Assembly (NCBI RefSeq): GCF_011806565.1
Contig: NZ_JAATOP010000002.1
Span: 248,001 to 312,000 of the forward strand
Direction of reading: 5' to 3'
From: Marivivens donghaensis
GTDB lineage: Bacteria; Pseudomonadota; Alphaproteobacteria; Rhodobacterales; Rhodobacteraceae
Length of the DNA: 64,000 nt
Positions within the stretch are counted from its first letter, which is position 1, and each line of letters starts with the position of its first letter. Below, in pieces: positions 26,878 through 35,257 of this stretch. The notes below the pieces were generated by a model. It was not told where the DNA came from. It was given only the letters and a program-made list of their open reading frames with translations, and ran no database searches. A program made the translations under genes and the position numbers.

Positions 26878-28025
26878 TGACGCTCGATCTGAATGACCCG
26901 CAGACGTTGATCTTGCTGGCAGCGGGGGCTTTGGGCCTCTTTGTCATCATCCTGCTGCTGATGGTCGTGAAACGGGCAGGGCAGTCGGCGCACATGGCGC
27001 AGATGGTGGCAAGCCAGATGGGCCACGTGAACCAGCGTGTACAAATGCTTTCAGACGGGCAGCAGCAGCTCGTGGGCGGCCTGTCGTCGGTGTCGGAGGC
27101 GCAGGCTAAATCGCAGGCGCATATGCTCAAGCTGATGGAGGCGCGCCTTCAGCAGGTCAACGAGGTTGTGAACCGGAACCTGACGCTCAGCACTAAAGCT
27201 ACGGCGCAGAGCCTTGGCGAGCTTCAGCAGCGCCTCAAGACCATCGATAAGGCGCAGGAAAATATCACCAAGCTGTCGGGCGATGTGCTCGGTCTACAAG
27301 ACATCCTGTCGAACAAACAGACCCGCGGCGCGTTCGGTGAAATCCAATTGCAGGACATCGTGTCCAAAGCGCTGCCAAGCGACAGTTATCGCCTCCAGCA
27401 CACGCTTTCCAATGGCAAGCGCGCCGACTGTCTGATCCACCTGCCCAACCCGCCGGGGCCGATTGTGATCGACAGTAAATTCCCGCTCGAACCTTACGAG
27501 CGGATGCGCAAAGCGGAGACCGAGCAGGAGAAGCTGGAAGGCGTTCGTCAGATGCGGATCGCGGTGCGCAACCATATCCGCGCCATCAGCGAGAAATACA
27601 TCATAGAGGGTGAGACGGCCGACGGTGCGATCCTCTTCCTGCCGTCCGAAGCTGTCTACGCAGAGATCCACGCGAACTTCTCTGAACTGGTTCGCGAGGG
27701 GTTCGCCGCGCGGGTTTATATCGTTTCGCCGACGACATGCATGGCCACGCTGAATACAATGCGCGCGATCCTGAAGGACGCCCGTATGCGCGAACAGGCG
27801 GGTGCCATTCGTCAAGAATTGTCGAAGCTTTATGGGGACGTTGATCGCCTTGGCTCTCGCGTGGAAAACCTCGACCGCCACTTCAACATGGCGGCCAAGG
27901 ATATCGCGGAGATCAAAATCAGTGCCGAGAAGGCTGGGAAGCGTGCGCAGCGGCTCGACAACTTCGATTTCGAAGAGCTTGCCCCCGAAACCAACCCGTC
28001 AGTCGTGCCGCTGGTGCAGGATTAA
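26877..28025 (+). CDS. rmuC: DNA recombination protein RmuC
   Basis: A 382-residue protein that limits recombination at inverted repeats; the family has a restriction-nuclease-like fold. One N-terminal transmembrane helix (residues ~9-30, LILLAAGALGLFVIILLL) is followed by a coiled coil to about 140. The RmuC domain then follows with GAFGEIQLQDIVSKALP, PIVIDSKFPLEPYE and ILFLPSEAVYAEI. It starts at the TGATG junction with mutL and converges with chrR, where the two stops overlap by 4 nt without a terminator. Confidence 0.92.
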   Translation: MTLDLNDPQTLILLAAGALGLFVIILLLMVVKRAGQSAHMAQMVASQMGHVNQRVQMLSDGQQQLVGGLSSVSEAQAKSQAHMLKLMEARLQQVNEVVNRNLTLSTKATAQSLGELQQRLKTIDKAQENITKLSGDVLGLQDILSNKQTRGAFGEIQLQDIVSKALPSDSYRLQHTLSNGKRADCLIHLPNPPGPIVIDSKFPLEPYERMRKAETEQEKLEGVRQMRIAVRNHIRAISEKYIIEGETADGAILFLPSEAVYAEIHANFSELVREGFAARVYIVSPTTCMATLNTMRAILKDARMREQAGAIRQELSKLYGDVDRLGSRVENLDRHFNMAAKDIAEIKISAEKAGKRAQRLDNFDFEELAPETNPSVVPLVQD

Positions 28026-28675
28026 ATCTTCACGAACGGCTGCGCGAGGCGCGGCAGGAACGAGTTGAACTTGAGCGGCGCATCGGTCGCGGCAAGGCAG
28101 ATGCAATCCAGCCCGTCCTCGGCGACCGGCGTGTGATCCAACTCTTCGTTCGCGACTTCAATGTCACCGGTGCCGAAGCGGTCGGTTTCATCCTTGAACG
28201 CGCCTTGCAGAACCAGCGTCAGTTCCAGCCCGCGATGACCGTGATCGGGCACCGACGCGCCAGCCGGAATATGCAGCAGACGCACAGTCGCACCGCTGTC
28301 GGTGGGCAGGATCATCTGCTTCACACCGCCGCCAACGCGGCGCCAACGCACGGCTTCGACGTCGCCGCCAACATAGTCAGCCAGCGGGGTCGGGAAGATG
28401 CCCGCACGCTCGGCTTTAATCTGCACTTCCTCTGGCGAGTCCGTCAGAGCGGCGAGCGCAATGTCCAGCGCATCGGCATTCATCGCCATTGCGTCAGTGC
28501 GCATCATGACTTCACCGCCAACGGCCTCGAACTCGGCCAGTTGGGCGCGGCATTCGTCACACAGCGAAATGTGCGTTGCCACAACGAGGTTGAACGCTTC
28601 GGGCAGGGTGCCTGCGGCGTAACCCATCAGCAGAGAATTGGTGAGGTGGTGTTTGATATCTTTCATCGGCTTCAT
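28022..28675 (-). CDS. chrR: ChrR-type zinc anti-sigma factor
   Basis: Cytosolic anti-sigma factor that holds RpoE inactive until singlet oxygen or organic peroxide triggers its proteolysis. It has 217 residues. The N-terminal zinc anti-sigma domain has His10, His35, Cys39 and Cys42 (HISLCDEC), the same spacing as R. sphaeroides ChrR. The C-terminal cupin domain (ASVPDHGHRGLELTLVLQGAF) includes metal-ligand-like His/Glu residues and a late His in LDHTPVAE. It follows rpoE by one base, so the two form an operon. An in-frame ATG at 28666 is an alternative start. Confidence 0.92.
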   Translation of the reverse strand: MKPMKDIKHHLTNSLLMGYAAGTLPEAFNLVVATHISLCDECRAQLAEFEAVGGEVMMRTDAMAMNADALDIALAALTDSPEEVQIKAERAGIFPTPLADYVGGDVEAVRWRRVGGGVKQMILPTDSGATVRLLHIPAGASVPDHGHRGLELTLVLQGAFKDETDRFGTGDIEVANEELDHTPVAEDGLDCICLAATDAPLKFNSFLPRLAQPFVKI

Positions 28676-28676
28676 C

Positions 28677-29225
28677 TCATCTCATCGCATGACGCAAGCG
28701 GTCCAGCGCCAACCTTATCCGTGATTTGATCGTGCCCAGCGGCAGGCCGGTTTCTTCGGCAATCTGCGCATGGGTCAATTCGCCAAAGTAGGCTTTTTCG
28801 ACCAGCTCTCTTTGTTTGTCTGGCAGTTCGGCTATCGCCTTGCCCAGTCGTTCGGTATCTTGCTGGAGCGCGACCTGTTCTTCCTGGTCCGGCTCCGCTT
28901 CGGGTCCCCAAGGCAGATCCTCGGGTTCGGGTCGTCTTGCGCGGCGGATGATGTCGATCTGCCTATTGCGCGCGATCGTAAAAATCCAAGTGGACACACT
29001 CGCACGGGCGGGATCGAACAAGTGTGCCTTGCGCCACATCGTGGCCATCACATCCTGAGCAATCTCTTCTGCCTGATCCGGAGCCGCGCCGCCCCGCACC
29101 AGGAAACCTTTCACACGCGGCGCGAAATGGCTGAACAAACGGGCAAAAGCCTGCTTGTCCTGATGTTCACGGATCGCGTTAACCTCTGCGACCCATGCCA
29201 TTCGACCGTTGTTTTCGTTTACCAC
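28677..29225 (-). CDS. rpoE: ECF sigma factor RpoE (ECF11 type), ChrR-controlled
   Basis: Extracytoplasmic-function sigma factor; in Rhodobacter it activates the singlet-oxygen response. About 182 residues. Region 2 includes FARLFSHFAPRVKGFLVRGG, EEIAQDVMATMWRKAHLFDP and STWIFTIARNRQIDIIRRARR; the linker has PEDLPWGPEAEPDQ; region 4 has LPDKQRELVEKAYFG and the helix-turn-helix AEETGLPLGTIKSRIRLALDRL. The start is uncertain: GTG at 29225 has AAGGA upstream and is preferred to an ATG at 29201; an open frame extends to 29411. A TGATCC-N18-TAGAA promoter-like element lies upstream, consistent with autoregulation. Confidence 0.92.
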   Translation of the reverse strand: MVNENNGRMAWVAEVNAIREHQDKQAFARLFSHFAPRVKGFLVRGGAAPDQAEEIAQDVMATMWRKAHLFDPARASVSTWIFTIARNRQIDIIRRARRPEPEDLPWGPEAEPDQEEQVALQQDTERLGKAIAELPDKQRELVEKAYFGELTHAQIAEETGLPLGTIKSRIRLALDRLRHAMR

Positions 29226-29332
29226 CCGTTTTTCCTTGCTCTTCCGATTGGCCAACGGCTGCCGCATTGCGCGGACGTGCATTGGTATGGCCACATTATC
29301 GGCACGGGTATCGACGAGGTTCAACATACTTC

Positions 29333-29361
29333 TTCTACGGAAGTCGCGCCAAAGTGGATCA
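29333..29361 (-). promoter_or_regulatory. Candidate sigma-E promoter of rpoE-chrR
   Basis: On the minus strand the spacer reads TGATCC, 18 nt, then TAGAA. The -35 box equals the one I recall for R. sphaeroides RpoE promoters and the -10 is close to TAAGA. It lies about 110 nt before the likely rpoE start. Confidence 0.55.
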
Positions 29362-29376
29362 CCGCGATTTTTATTT

Positions 29377-29405
29377 TCATCCAAGCTGCATGAACTCACG
29401 TAAGT
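29377..29405 (+). promoter_or_regulatory. Candidate sigma-E promoter of the divergent lipid operon
   Basis: On the plus strand TCATCC, 18 nt, TAAGT differs from TGATCC/TAAGA by one base in each box and has the same spacer length as the opposite-strand candidate. It ends 23 nt before the ATG at 29429, leaving a short leader with a GGAG ribosome site. Confidence 0.45.
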
Positions 29406-29428
29406 CTTCAAAAATACGGAGAACTTTG

Positions 29429-30730
29429 ATGAACGTGCACGTCCCCCGCCGCATCCCGAGCAAAGTCGCCATCATTGGCGGCGGTATTTCGGGCATGGGC
29501 GCCGCCTACAAACTGGCGGAGACGCATAACGTCACGCTCTTCGAAGCGGAAAAAGACCTCGGCGGCCATGCCCGCACCCGCATGGGCGGACGCGATGGCG
29601 ATCAGGCGGTCGATACCGGCTTTATCGTATTCAACCATGTGAACTATCCGCATCTGGTGGAGCTGTTCCGCGAGCTAGAAGTGCCGACGGTCAAATCGGA
29701 CATGAGCTTTGGTGCATCGCTTGGTGACGGCCGCTACGAATATGCGCTGAAAAGCCTTCGCGCGATTTTTGCCCAGCCGATGAACGCGCTGAACCCAAAG
29801 CACCTGCGGATGGTGCGCGATATCATGCACTTCAACGCGAACGCGCTGGAAGTTGCGCGGTCCGACCGCACGATGACGGTCGAGGGTATGCTGCAAAAAC
29901 TCGGCACCGGAGAGTGGTTCCGCAACCGCTACCTGCTCCCGCTGTCGGGCGCGATCTGGTCGACGCCGGTCGAAAAAATCGCTGACTTCCCCGCCTATGC
30001 GATGATGCAGTTCTTTGAAAACCACGCGCTGCTGCACCACACCGGACAGCACCAGTGGTACACGGTGGCGAGCGGCTCGCGCAGCTACGTTTCGCGTTTG
30101 GAAAACCGTCTGAACCTGAACAACGTCGATTTGCGTCTGGGCGCTTGGGTCGAGGGCGTGCGCCGGACAGGTGCGGGCGCTGAGGTTCGTGTCCACGGGG
30201 GCGAGTGGGAACACTTCGACGAGGTGATCTTTGCCACCCATTCCGATGACACGCTGCGCCTGCTGGCTGACCCGACCGCCGCCGAACAGGAAGCGCTCGG
30301 CGCGATCAAGTATCAGCCAAACCGCGTTGTTCTTCACTCGGACGTGGACATCATGCCCAAGCGGCGCGTTGTCTGGTCATCGTGGAACTACACTGAAATG
30401 CACGGCAAGCAGACCGATCAGATCGACCTGACCTATTGGATGAACAACCTTCAGCCTTGGTTGAAAAAGGACGAGCTGTTTGTGACCCTCAACAGCACCC
30501 GCACCATCCGCGAGGAACTGATCTGGGATGAAGTCACCCTGCGCCATCCGGTCTATGACCTTGCGGCGCTAGAAGGACAAAAACATGTTGCCGCGATCAA
30601 CGGTGAGAACCGCACGTGGTTCTGCGGCGCTTGGATGAAGAACGGTTTTCACGAAGATGGTCTGTCGAGCGCGATTGACGTGGTCAACGCGCTGCAATCG
30701 GCTCAGGAATTCAGTGTGGCGGCGGAATGA
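29429..30730 (+). CDS. FAD-dependent amine-oxidase-like protein (RSP_1091/UfaD-like)
   Basis: A 433-residue flavoprotein with a dinucleotide-binding start VAIIGGGISGMGAAYKLAE, then ...EAEKDLGGHARTR, and a C-terminal FAD-binding WFCGAWMKNGFHEDGLSSA segment. It has the architecture of flavin amine oxidase / phytoene-desaturase relatives. Its position, divergent from rpoE-chrR and overlapping a DUF1365 gene, matches the R. sphaeroides sigma-E target operon RSP_1087-1091. In that organism a member of this group (UfaD) is reported as desaturating methylated vaccenoyl chains on phospholipids en route to furan fatty acids. The enzyme identity is inferred from family and context. Confidence 0.8.
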   Translation: MNVHVPRRIPSKVAIIGGGISGMGAAYKLAETHNVTLFEAEKDLGGHARTRMGGRDGDQAVDTGFIVFNHVNYPHLVELFRELEVPTVKSDMSFGASLGDGRYEYALKSLRAIFAQPMNALNPKHLRMVRDIMHFNANALEVARSDRTMTVEGMLQKLGTGEWFRNRYLLPLSGAIWSTPVEKIADFPAYAMMQFFENHALLHHTGQHQWYTVASGSRSYVSRLENRLNLNNVDLRLGAWVEGVRRTGAGAEVRVHGGEWEHFDEVIFATHSDDTLRLLADPTAAEQEALGAIKYQPNRVVLHSDVDIMPKRRVVWSSWNYTEMHGKQTDQIDLTYWMNNLQPWLKKDELFVTLNSTRTIREELIWDEVTLRHPVYDLAALEGQKHVAAINGENRTWFCGAWMKNGFHEDGLSSAIDVVNALQSAQEFSVAAE

Positions 30731-31482
30731 ACGGTATCCAACATATCGAAGGAAAGACCTTCCACGGCAGGCGCGGCGACATCAAGAACGCCTTCTCCTA
30801 CCACGTGGATTACGTCTTGCTTGATCCCGAGCTAGAGGTCGATGCGCCGTCGCTATTCGGACGCAACAAAAGCGCGATGGTTGCCGTCCATGACCGCGAC
30901 TACGGCGGTGAGCCGAAGAACGGCACAGGCGTTGCTTGGGCGCGCCAGGCGCTGGCCGAAGCGGGTATCCAGCTTGGTGGTCGCATTCTGCTACTCGCGC
31001 AGCCGCGGGTGCTGGGGCATGTGTTCAATCCGGTCAGCTTCTGGCTCTGCCATGATGAAAGCGGAGTGCTAAGGGTCGCGATTGCAGAGGTCACCAACAC
31101 CTTTGGCGACCGCCACAGCTACCTCTGTCATCACGATAACTTTGCACCGCTGGGAAGTGGCGGCTGGGTGGAAGCGCAAAAGATTTTCCACGTCTCGCCG
31201 TTCCAACCGATCAACGGGACCTACCGGTTCCGCTTTGGTGTGGAGGATGACAAGGTCAACATCGTGATCGACTACCGCCATGCTGAGGGCGGGGTGGTCG
31301 CGACTCTGGTTGGTGAGCGCAAGCGGCTCACCAATTCCGGCATCGTCCGCACGGCCATCAAACGCCCGCTGGGGTCGATCCGCGTGCTCGCGCTGATTTA
31401 CTGGCAGGCGCTCAAACTCAAGTTCAAGGGCGCTCTGTATCGCAGCAGACCGGAGCCGCCCGCTCAAGAAGTCAGTCGTTAA
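30727..31482 (+). CDS. DUF1365 protein (UfaO-like)
   Basis: A 251-residue DUF1365 member. Recognisable blocks are FHGRRGDIKNAFSYHVDYVLLD at the start, QPRVLGHVFNPVSFWLCHD, EVTNTFGDRHSYLC and KIFHVSPFQPINGTYRFRF, rich in conserved His/Asn/Phe. The family regularly accompanies the amine-oxidase-like flavoprotein and cyclopropane-synthase-like enzymes. In Rhodobacter a protein from this locus, UfaO, is thought to be needed to insert oxygen into the furan ring. No known cofactor motif is visible. Overlap with the upstream gene is 4 nt (ATGA). Confidence 0.8.
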   Translation: MNGIQHIEGKTFHGRRGDIKNAFSYHVDYVLLDPELEVDAPSLFGRNKSAMVAVHDRDYGGEPKNGTGVAWARQALAEAGIQLGGRILLLAQPRVLGHVFNPVSFWLCHDESGVLRVAIAEVTNTFGDRHSYLCHHDNFAPLGSGGWVEAQKIFHVSPFQPINGTYRFRFGVEDDKVNIVIDYRHAEGGVVATLVGERKRLTNSGIVRTAIKRPLGSIRVLALIYWQALKLKFKGALYRSRPEPPAQEVSR

Positions 31483-31488
31483 GGTGTC

Positions 31489-32046
31489 ATGATGATTATC
31501 GGTATTCTGGTCGGCCTCATCATCGCGGTCGTAGTCGCCTTGCTGTGGCAACGATACGCGAGCTTCGTCTCGCAAAAGCTGGACCATTATCAGTCCGGCC
31601 GGCCGTTCGACATCCGCCGCGACCTCAATGGTCCGATCCTGAGCGAGGGGCTGATTTATGGCCCGCTCGGCAAAGTGTCGTCGCGCTTCGTCGGTGACTT
31701 CTCGGTCAATTGGGACGGTGATCGCGCCATTATGATCGAGCGGTTCCGCTATGACAGCGGCAATACTCAGGACCGCCGCTGGGATCTCGTTCTGCACCCC
31801 GATGGTCGGATTTCCGCCGAAGCGGAGGACCTCGTGGGCACAGGACATGGCCGCGTCGCTGGATCGGCGCTCGTGCTGCACTATCGTATTAGGCTGACCG
31901 AGGATGCGGGTGGGCATGTGCTGTCCGTCACGGACTGGATCTACACGACCCCCGACGGTGTCCTCATGAATAGATCGCAATTTAGAAAGTTCGGGCTGAA
32001 AGTTGCTGAACTCGTCGCGACGATGAGGCCCGCCGGAGAGTATTGA
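31489..32046 (+). CDS. DUF3833 family membrane-anchored protein
   Basis: A 185-residue protein with one N-terminal transmembrane helix (MMIIGILVGLIIAVVVALLW) followed by a soluble, lipocalin-like beta-rich domain typical of DUF3833 (LNGPILSEGLIYGPLGKVSSRF, DRRWDLVLHPDGRI, DWIYTTPDGVLMNRSQFRKFG). Its function is unknown; the context in a sigma-E-linked lipid operon suggests lipid binding or protection. The AAGG ribosome site overlaps the DUF1365 stop, and the next gene starts two bases after this stop, so it lies firmly within the operon. Confidence 0.8.
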   Translation: MMIIGILVGLIIAVVVALLWQRYASFVSQKLDHYQSGRPFDIRRDLNGPILSEGLIYGPLGKVSSRFVGDFSVNWDGDRAIMIERFRYDSGNTQDRRWDLVLHPDGRISAEAEDLVGTGHGRVAGSALVLHYRIRLTEDAGGHVLSVTDWIYTTPDGVLMNRSQFRKFGLKVAELVATMRPAGEY

Positions 32047-32047
32047 G

Positions 32048-32776
32048 ATGGATGATTGGGCAGGCAAGCGGTACTGGATTATCGGAGCCAGCGAAGGTTT
32101 GGGGCGCGCTCTTGCGCAAAAGCTGAGCAAGAGCGGCGTGAAGCTCGTTCTGTCGGCGCGGAGCGAGGATCGGCTGAAAGAACTGGCCGCTGAACTGCCC
32201 GCGCACGCCGATGTCGTCACCATTGACGTGACCGATATCAAGAGCGTCGAGAAGGCCGCCAAAGAGGCCGGCTCCATTGACGGCATGGTCTATCTTGCCG
32301 GTGCCTATTGGCCGATGGCCGCGACTGAGTGGGACAACGAAAAAGCCGAACTGATGGGCGACACCAACTTCCTCGGCGCGATGCGGTGTGTGGGCGCGGT
32401 GCTGCCGACGATGGTCCAAAAGAACAAAGGTCACATCATCCTGACCTCGTCGCTGACCGCCTATCGCGGCCTTCCTGGGTCGATCGGCTACGGCGCATCC
32501 AAAGCCGCGCTTCTGTCGCTGGCCGAGGGAATGCGCGCCGACCTCAAGGAAACCAACGTCAACGTTCAGATCGTCAATCCGGGGTTCATCAAGACCCGCC
32601 TCACGGACAAGAACGACTTCAACATGCCGATGATGATGGAGCCGGAAGACGCGGCTGCCGAAATTTTCGAGCACATGAACTCCGACGATTTCAAGAAGTC
32701 CTTCCCCGCGCCGATGGGCATCATGCTCCGTGCGTCGCAATTCCTGCCGGACTGGCTCTATTACAAGCTCGTCTGA
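32048..32776 (+). CDS. Short-chain dehydrogenase/reductase
   Basis: A 242-residue classical SDR oxidoreductase. The cofactor loop GASEGLG is at 13-19, LSARSEDRL suggests NADP(H) preference, and the catalytic residues Ser134/135, Tyr148 and Lys152 (YGASK) are present, followed by NPGFIKTRLTDKNDF. It is the last gene of the four-gene set after the divergent sigma-E promoter region and corresponds to the RSP_1087 position of Rhodobacter. Its substrate, perhaps a lipid-derived aldehyde or ketone, is an inference from context. A long spacer hairpin follows. Confidence 0.88.
   Translation: MDDWAGKRYWIIGASEGLGRALAQKLSKSGVKLVLSARSEDRLKELAAELPAHADVVTIDVTDIKSVEKAAKEAGSIDGMVYLAGAYWPMAATEWDNEKAELMGDTNFLGAMRCVGAVLPTMVQKNKGHIILTSSLTAYRGLPGSIGYGASKAALLSLAEGMRADLKETNVNVQIVNPGFIKTRLTDKNDFNMPMMMEPEDAAAEIFEHMNSDDFKKSFPAPMGIMLRASQFLPDWLYYKLV

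Positions 32777-33169: not shown

Positions 33170-35257
<2,088 letters not shown>

Follow-up and report, generated by a model that had tools for sequence, protein, structure and literature searches.

A predicted RpoE-ChrR stress response and furan-fatty-acid operon in Marivivens donghaensis, a member of the Rhodobacteraceae with no reaction centre found

Organization of the divergent locus

The window examined here, a 64,000-nucleotide stretch of the Marivivens donghaensis genome (contig NZ_JAATOP010000002.1, positions 248,001 to 312,000), carries two divergent transcription units, namely rpoE-chrR on the minus strand, encoding an extracytoplasmic function (ECF) sigma factor and a zinc-binding anti-sigma factor, and the four-gene operon ufaD-ufaO-DUF3833-SDR on the plus strand. 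An open reading frame (ORF) check of the window returned all six reading frames where a first-pass annotation of the same DNA had placed them. In the operon, ufaD (start at 29429; 29429..30730) overlaps ufaO (30727..31482) by 4 bases, 6 bases separate the ufaO stop from the start of the DUF3833 gene (31489..32046), and 1 base separates the latter from the gene of a short-chain dehydrogenase/reductase (SDR) family oxidoreductase (32048..32776). The encoded proteins match, in this order, Amino_oxidase (with a GGGISG motif), DUF1365 (PF07103, E = 1.8e-68), DUF3833 (PF12915, E = 6.1e-44) and adh_short (E = 4.4e-44, with GASEGLG and YGASK motifs). The coupled operon of amine-oxidase-like, DUF1365, DUF3833 and SDR proteins described in that annotation thus stands, and the risk raised with it, that the proteins would align best to unrelated families, materialized for none of the six.

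The sigma factor (rpoE, 28677..29225) matches Sigma70_r2/r4 and, among chains in the PDB, Rhodobacter sphaeroides RpoE (2q1z_A, E = 3.6e-78; second-best match, E = 1.7e-21). ChrR (28022..28675), composed of an N-terminal anti-sigma domain and a cupin, matches R. sphaeroides chain 2z2s_B (E = 2.7e-79) and, in a profile search, Cupin_7 and TIGR02451 (230.7 bits, cut-off 124.5); its score against the narrower ChrR equivalog NF051881, 150.8 of 300 bits, is under the cut-off. The complete HxxxCxxC motif reported in the first pass is present, with H10, H35, C39 and C42 in place, as are H145, H147, E151 and H181; from the R. sphaeroides structures we take these residues to be ligands of the zinc site and the cupin. 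Judged by these alignments, both proteins are closely homologous to their counterparts in the solved R. sphaeroides RpoE/ChrR complex (PDB 2Q1Z/2Z2S). Translation of rpoE probably begins at a GTG at 29225; a TTG at 29411 was considered and set aside, the GTG (giving 182 amino acids) being likelier from the alignment and an AAGGA upstream.

Each unit is preceded by a sigma-E type promoter, predicted from sequence only. The element of rpoE-chrR, TGATCC-N16-CGTAGA (29334..29361, minus strand), is perfect, and that of the ufa operon, TCATCC-N16-CGTAAG (29377..29404, plus strand), carries one mismatch. An orthologous sigma factor, an adjacent zinc/cupin anti-sigma factor and TGATCC-N16-CGTA at the pair's own promoter together place it, by sequence, among ECF11 RpoE-ChrR systems.

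The conservation of these elements was scored in relative loci, drawn from the best 80 of 198 DUF3833 relatives. With TGATCC-N(15-17)-CGTA as the pattern, 77 rpoE-ufaD intergenic regions (76 relatives and the window) contain a perfect element on the rpoE strand in 70 cases and one with at most one mismatch in 74; on the ufaD strand the corresponding numbers are 28 and 63, with a spacing of 16 in all 63. Mirrored DNA gave matches with at most one mismatch in 1/77 regions forward and 0/77 reverse, and three shuffle controls gave 3, 0 and 1 of 77 forward and 1, 1 and 2 reverse. This wider element was picked after the matches of a first, narrower pattern were known, which had hit 26/77 regions forward and 20/77 reverse (mirrored control, 0 and 1). 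All six congeners examined have one mismatch in the ufa promoter, always at the second base, and none or one in the rpoE promoter (no control was run for this comparison). A plain scan of the window for TSATCC-N18-TAAG with one mismatch allowed returned 2 matches against an expectation of 3.64, and the count by itself therefore lends the element no significance. The argument for sigma-E control is instead built on position, conservation and the count in the organism's own genome, where TSATCC-N16-CGTARR occurs at 8 sites and the mirrored pattern at 0; an earlier genome pattern, TGATC-N18..20-TAAGA, had found 4 sites (mirrored control, 1), those of the window not among them.

Furan-fatty-acid enzymes and the predicted regulon

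Enzyme activities, regulation and protective role were established by others in R. sphaeroides, whose rpoE-chrR and RSP1091-1087 comprise the same gene families in the same divergent layout, with an RpoE promoter before both operons (PMC3818230). That operon is under RpoE control and induced by singlet oxygen (PMC3818230, PMC7074977), RSP1087 and RSP1088 weakly so (log2 0.7 to 1.1; PMC7074977). Furan formation in R. sphaeroides starts with the methylation of cis-vaccenoyl chains by UfaM; the methylated product is desaturated by UfaD (RSP1091), and UfaO (RSP1090, a DUF1365 protein) adds an O2-derived oxygen and closes the furan ring (PMC7380195). The comparison with RSP1087-1091 made in the first-pass annotation, including RpoE control, singlet-oxygen response and furan genes, therefore holds on these three sources, except that the reference operon has five genes and the window's four, without a counterpart of the RSP1089 transporter.

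By family and synteny, the window's amine-oxidase-like protein is assigned as UfaD, the RSP1091 counterpart and putative flavin-dependent desaturase of methylated acyl chains, and its DUF1365 protein as UfaO, the RSP1090 counterpart and putative furan-forming oxygenase. An AlphaFold2 model of UfaO (predicted local distance difference test, pLDDT, 91.9; predicted TM-score, pTM, 0.91) has no match among PDB folds at E <= 0.001, and a search of its sequence against solved structures gave nothing significant (best E = 0.32); because of the lack of a fold match, no cofactor can be proposed. Among 31 sequences, the window's included, 16 UfaO residues are invariant, among them H13, R15, R94, T125, Y132, K152 and Y166.

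Since the window holds no ufaM, the earlier proposal that this organism makes or modifies membrane fatty acids under stress called for a genome-wide check. The genome encodes a single strong CMAS protein (G000:C21, E = 8.2e-87), whose gene lies directly downstream of a photolyase gene, with the same neighbours as RSP2143-2144 (phrA-ufaM), the separate locus at which R. sphaeroides ufaM also stands beside a photolyase gene. The photolyase start is preceded, at a distance of about 57 bases, by a sigma-E element with one mismatch. A second CMAS match (35 bits) was rejected as a further methylase, as it falls in an ORF that we take to be UbiG-like. The best model for the ufaM candidate is the cyclopropane synthase PRK11705 (298.3 bits, cut-off 400), and because family models cannot separate UfaM from cyclopropane synthase the assignment is based on synteny. 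Given the CMAS gene beside the photolyase gene, a candidate for each of UfaM, UfaD and UfaO is present. Gene content, promoter elements, conservation and the ufaM candidate are established for this genome itself. Homologs of UfaD and UfaO are also common to the window and Rhodopseudomonas palustris, whose RPA2571-2569 (UfaD, UfaO, UfaM) are sufficient when placed in R. sphaeroides (PMC7380195); there, in contrast, ufaM has a neighbouring locus tag, and FufM is added for a dimethyl furan chain.

Beyond the two in the window, the own-genome sites differ in their settings. One perfect element (L120 1501-1528; G000:C11:301533-301560) stands some 340 bases ahead of an RpoH gene (of the RpoHI or RpoHII type), inside an upstream ORF; it would fit the RpoE-to-RpoHII step known in R. 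sphaeroides (PMC6852236). Another (L125; G000:C22:109226-109253, minus strand) is directly before an ORF without a Pfam match, possibly a further regulon member. Two are inside ORFs (L118, L123), and one (L124) is about 300 bases before an ORF that is presumably nuoA-like.

The eighth site, TGATCC-N16-CGTAAG (L119 1501-1528; G000:C7:5811-5838), is 76 bases before the stretch of a small ORF used as query, not necessarily its start codon, and the gene of a PAS_2-GAF (bacteriophytochrome-like) protein comes next. The small ORF, for which heme-oxygenase-like would be a guess, has no Pfam or NCBIfam match. The arrangement recalls bphO-bphP of Pseudomonas syringae (PMC5507510), and RpoE control of a bacteriophytochrome gene pair was considered. 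It was rejected, as the TGATCC element occurs in 0/23 other genomes matching the small ORF (some weakly, E up to 8e-4) and the site overlaps GGAAC-N17-GTT, an EcfG-like element. A GGATCG match was found in 1 of those 23 genomes against 2 hits in 24 mirrored regions, and an EcfG-like element recurs at similar distance in two of the genomes (L188, L193). From these conservation data the site is read as a general stress promoter, probably of the EcfG-like type.

The genes and elements described above very probably constitute an ECF11 RpoE-ChrR response to singlet oxygen and organic hydroperoxides coupled to a furan-fatty-acid operon, and we infer that it would behave as in R. sphaeroides. ChrR would keep RpoE inactive until stress brings about the breakdown of ChrR, and freed RpoE would transcribe rpoE-chrR, the ufa operon, the photolyase-ufaM pair and perhaps an rpoH gene as well. 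UfaM, UfaD and UfaO would then convert phospholipid cis-vaccenoyl chains to a methyl-furan chain, which would scavenge singlet oxygen and be needed for full RpoE activation.

Several points weigh against this interpretation. Its support comes from genes and promoters, from which we infer the expression and the lipids of the organism. The mismatch at the second base of the ufa promoter, in the window and in 6/6 congeners, falls in the -35 element, so the promoter may be weaker. The rpoH site lies within an upstream ORF and 3/8 own-genome sites have no clear target, so that a lone site elsewhere in the genome counts for little. Finally, the putative identities of UfaD, UfaO and UfaM come from family and synteny, and the models used do not, at the sequence level, separate the UfaM candidate from a classical cyclopropane synthase.

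Conservation of the operon and its accessory genes

All 80 relative loci have DUF3833 and an SDR match, 78 have ufaD and 78 ufaO, and 76 each have chrR and a credible divergent rpoE; rpoE was matched in 77, the match in L063 (27%, far away) not being credible. Loci without some members (L046, L063, L081, L082) end at a contig edge on that side. This arrangement across relatives is not a product of chance. Between ufaO and DUF3833, 76/78 loci have a gap of 1225-1402 bases, and two (L015, L059) have none. The gap gene was identified as a major facilitator superfamily (MFS) transporter (MFS_2) in L011 and through a homolog found by tblastn in congener G132; the other gaps were classed by size. 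The window has no transporter at this position, where only a six-base gap is found (31483..31488), and the L011 transporter protein has no match in the window's genome as against matches in 36/61 genomes of the family set. The operon is an unremarkable representative of a described system and has lost one accessory gene, the transporter.

Within the genus, 6/7 genomes have ufaO followed directly by DUF3833, and the transporter is not there. Reciprocally, G132 (L237, C1:2666500-2678500) has the order ufaO-transporter-SDR with no DUF3833 in the operon and a DUF3833 gene elsewhere. The operon genes of congener G599 are 98-99% identical to those of the window, and the within-genus losses are therefore not independent events.

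In a second sample of 20 chosen DUF1365 loci, one per family, ufaD is found in 20, ufaM in 19, an SDR match in 16 (the least specific count, SDR being a large family), DUF3833 in 12 and the transporter in 5. UfaD, UfaO and UfaM thus occur together in 19/20 loci from 20 families, and five loci (L210, L211, L212, L214, L228), four of them in the window's class, have the order ufaD-ufaO-ufaM-transporter-DUF3833. RSP1089-1087 are described as restricted to Rhodobacteraceae in PMC3818230, whereas PMC5507510 lists P. syringae counterparts of RSP1087 and RSP1088; our counts agree better with the latter. P. syringae PSPTO_1043/1042 and phrB-cfa resemble the present system in the RpoE/ChrR-like pair and in core target orthologs, with TGATCC-type promoters (the rows of the promoter table seen carry CGTA). 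They differ in that the sigma factor is 38% identical to R. sphaeroides RpoE and that five of the six core genes are grouped with phrB and cfa at a single locus, away from the DUF3833 counterpart PSPTO_2515 (PMC5507510).

Closer examination of the DUF3833 protein, the RSP1088 counterpart, points to a fold. Its first 19 residues have a mean hydropathy of 3.2, and the model (pLDDT 93.6, pTM 0.83) consists of an N-terminal helix and ten strands. All 9 Foldseek matches at E <= 0.001 are barrels, including BFA1, CPES lyase, nitrophorin 7, a nitrobindin mutant and one designed barrel (E = 1.5e-4 to 8.6e-4, query TM-score 0.37-0.59), and human nitrobindin comes next (E = 1.2e-3, TM-score 0.61). A membrane-anchored lipocalin-like barrel, possibly of the calycin type (lipocalin, nitrobindin, fatty-acid-binding-protein-like), is thus a moderately supported prediction, and we suggest that DUF3833 may bind acyl chains, perhaps oxidised ones. 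Searched by sequence against solved structures, DUF3833 gave nothing significant (best E = 0.28) and the SDR, the RSP1087 counterpart, no match at E 1e-20.

Single deletions of RSP1087 (the SDR), RSP1088 and RSP1089 leave the fatty acids of R. sphaeroides unchanged (PMC7380195). PMC8465259 describes DUF3833 as a predicted lipoprotein whose function is unknown, next to a putative cyclopropane synthase, and the portions seen of the literature on DUF3833, and on RSP1087, RSP1088 and RSP1091 with singlet oxygen, give no role for DUF3833 or the SDR, as the first-pass annotation had stated. The lead here is that DUF3833 follows DUF1365 (UfaO) across the Pseudomonadota even though R. sphaeroides does not need it for making the furan chain: of 299 genomes of the phylum, 94 have DUF1365 (one under the family cut-off), 69 have DUF3833 and 66 have both (Fisher p = 1.2e-39, a value that ignores shared ancestry). 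We weighed whether DUF3833 and the SDR are accessory to the furan chain or passengers with an unlinked function. The passenger explanation is favoured by the silent deletions, by the variable accessory genes within the genus (operon DUF3833 lost in 1/7 genomes, transporter not there in 6/7), by a second DUF3833 gene in many genomes, sometimes in tandem, and by a distance of more than 10 kb from DUF1365 in 32/66 genomes with both. It is rather unlikely, since 66/69 DUF3833 genomes also have DUF1365, within 10 kb in 34/66, and 31 DUF3833 sequences, among them the window's, share 15 invariant residues. As accessory proteins, the two would be dispensable for synthesis of the furan chain yet tied to it; the likeliest roles would be, for DUF3833, to hold or carry an acyl chain at the membrane and, for the SDR, to reduce a carbonyl on that chain.

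A more specific version, which we consider unlikely, makes the two proteins a second, so far undescribed half of the response, at work once the furan chain has reacted. In this version singlet oxygen would convert the furan to a reactive dicarbonyl chain. The DUF3833 barrel would hold this product for reduction by the SDR, whether to detoxify it or to adjust the amount of a lipid signal that brings about the breakdown of ChrR. Such a role would explain the unchanged fatty acids on deletion, the membership in the regulon and the co-inheritance of DUF3833 with UfaO. If a lipid or an oxidation product leads to ChrR breakdown, a possible lipid-binding barrel encoded in the operon is a natural candidate for a part in it.

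Inducing signal and lipid product

The organism's own genome gave no match to Photo_RC, other photosynthesis genes not having been searched for; in a control of 14 genomes, the same search matched Synechococcus only. The absence of a reaction centre from the search, the missing transporter and the one -35 mismatch of the ufa promoter against the element used set the organism apart from R. sphaeroides. Because of the first of these, a different natural trigger was considered, in which the sigma factor would answer mainly organic hydroperoxide or metals. The R. sphaeroides system also answers tert-butyl hydroperoxide (PMC6852236) and that of Caulobacter also cadmium (PMC5507510). However, the non-phototrophs P. 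syringae and Caulobacter still answer singlet oxygen (PMC6852236, PMC5507510), and a photolyase in the predicted regulon suits an exposure to sunlight, so that we regard a trigger other than singlet oxygen as improbable. It has been proposed that the singlet-oxygen sigma factor and furan lipids are retained in non-photosynthetic species too (PMC6852236), and the compact gene set found in this genome agrees with that idea.

The weakest alternative, which we consider very unlikely, is that the operon makes another lipid (a methylated mono- or diunsaturated chain only, or a cyclopropane) and that the methylase is a plain cyclopropane synthase: the UfaM candidate does belong to the CMAS/cyclopropane synthase family, matched no model of its own and is the sole strong CMAS protein in the genome, but it is under the PRK11705 cut-off, its gene adjoins a photolyase gene as does RSP2144, ufaD and ufaO are kept in 78/80 relatives, and a ufaM-like gene is beside ufaD-ufaO in 19/20 sampled loci.

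The system itself is already described in R. sphaeroides. What is new is its occurrence in a genus where the genome examined gave no reaction centre, the lack of the transporter, the opposite pattern of loss in a congener, and, for DUF3833, the predicted fold and the co-inheritance with DUF1365. Points that the first-pass annotation did not contain are the transporter loss, a ufaM candidate elsewhere in the genome, the RSP1087, RSP1088 and RSP1089 deletions and the sigma-E element on each promoter.

Two genes follow the operon. A DUF3775 protein (PF12616; 32846..33169, plus strand) is a frequent downstream neighbour, near the operon in 43/80 relative loci, and its membership in the operon is uncertain. 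An NADH:flavin oxidoreductase of the old yellow enzyme type (33233-35257), just 3' of the operon, was rejected as a pathway member because none of the 80 relative loci gave a match of more than 60 bits; it adjoins the operon in 2/6 congeners (L239, L240).

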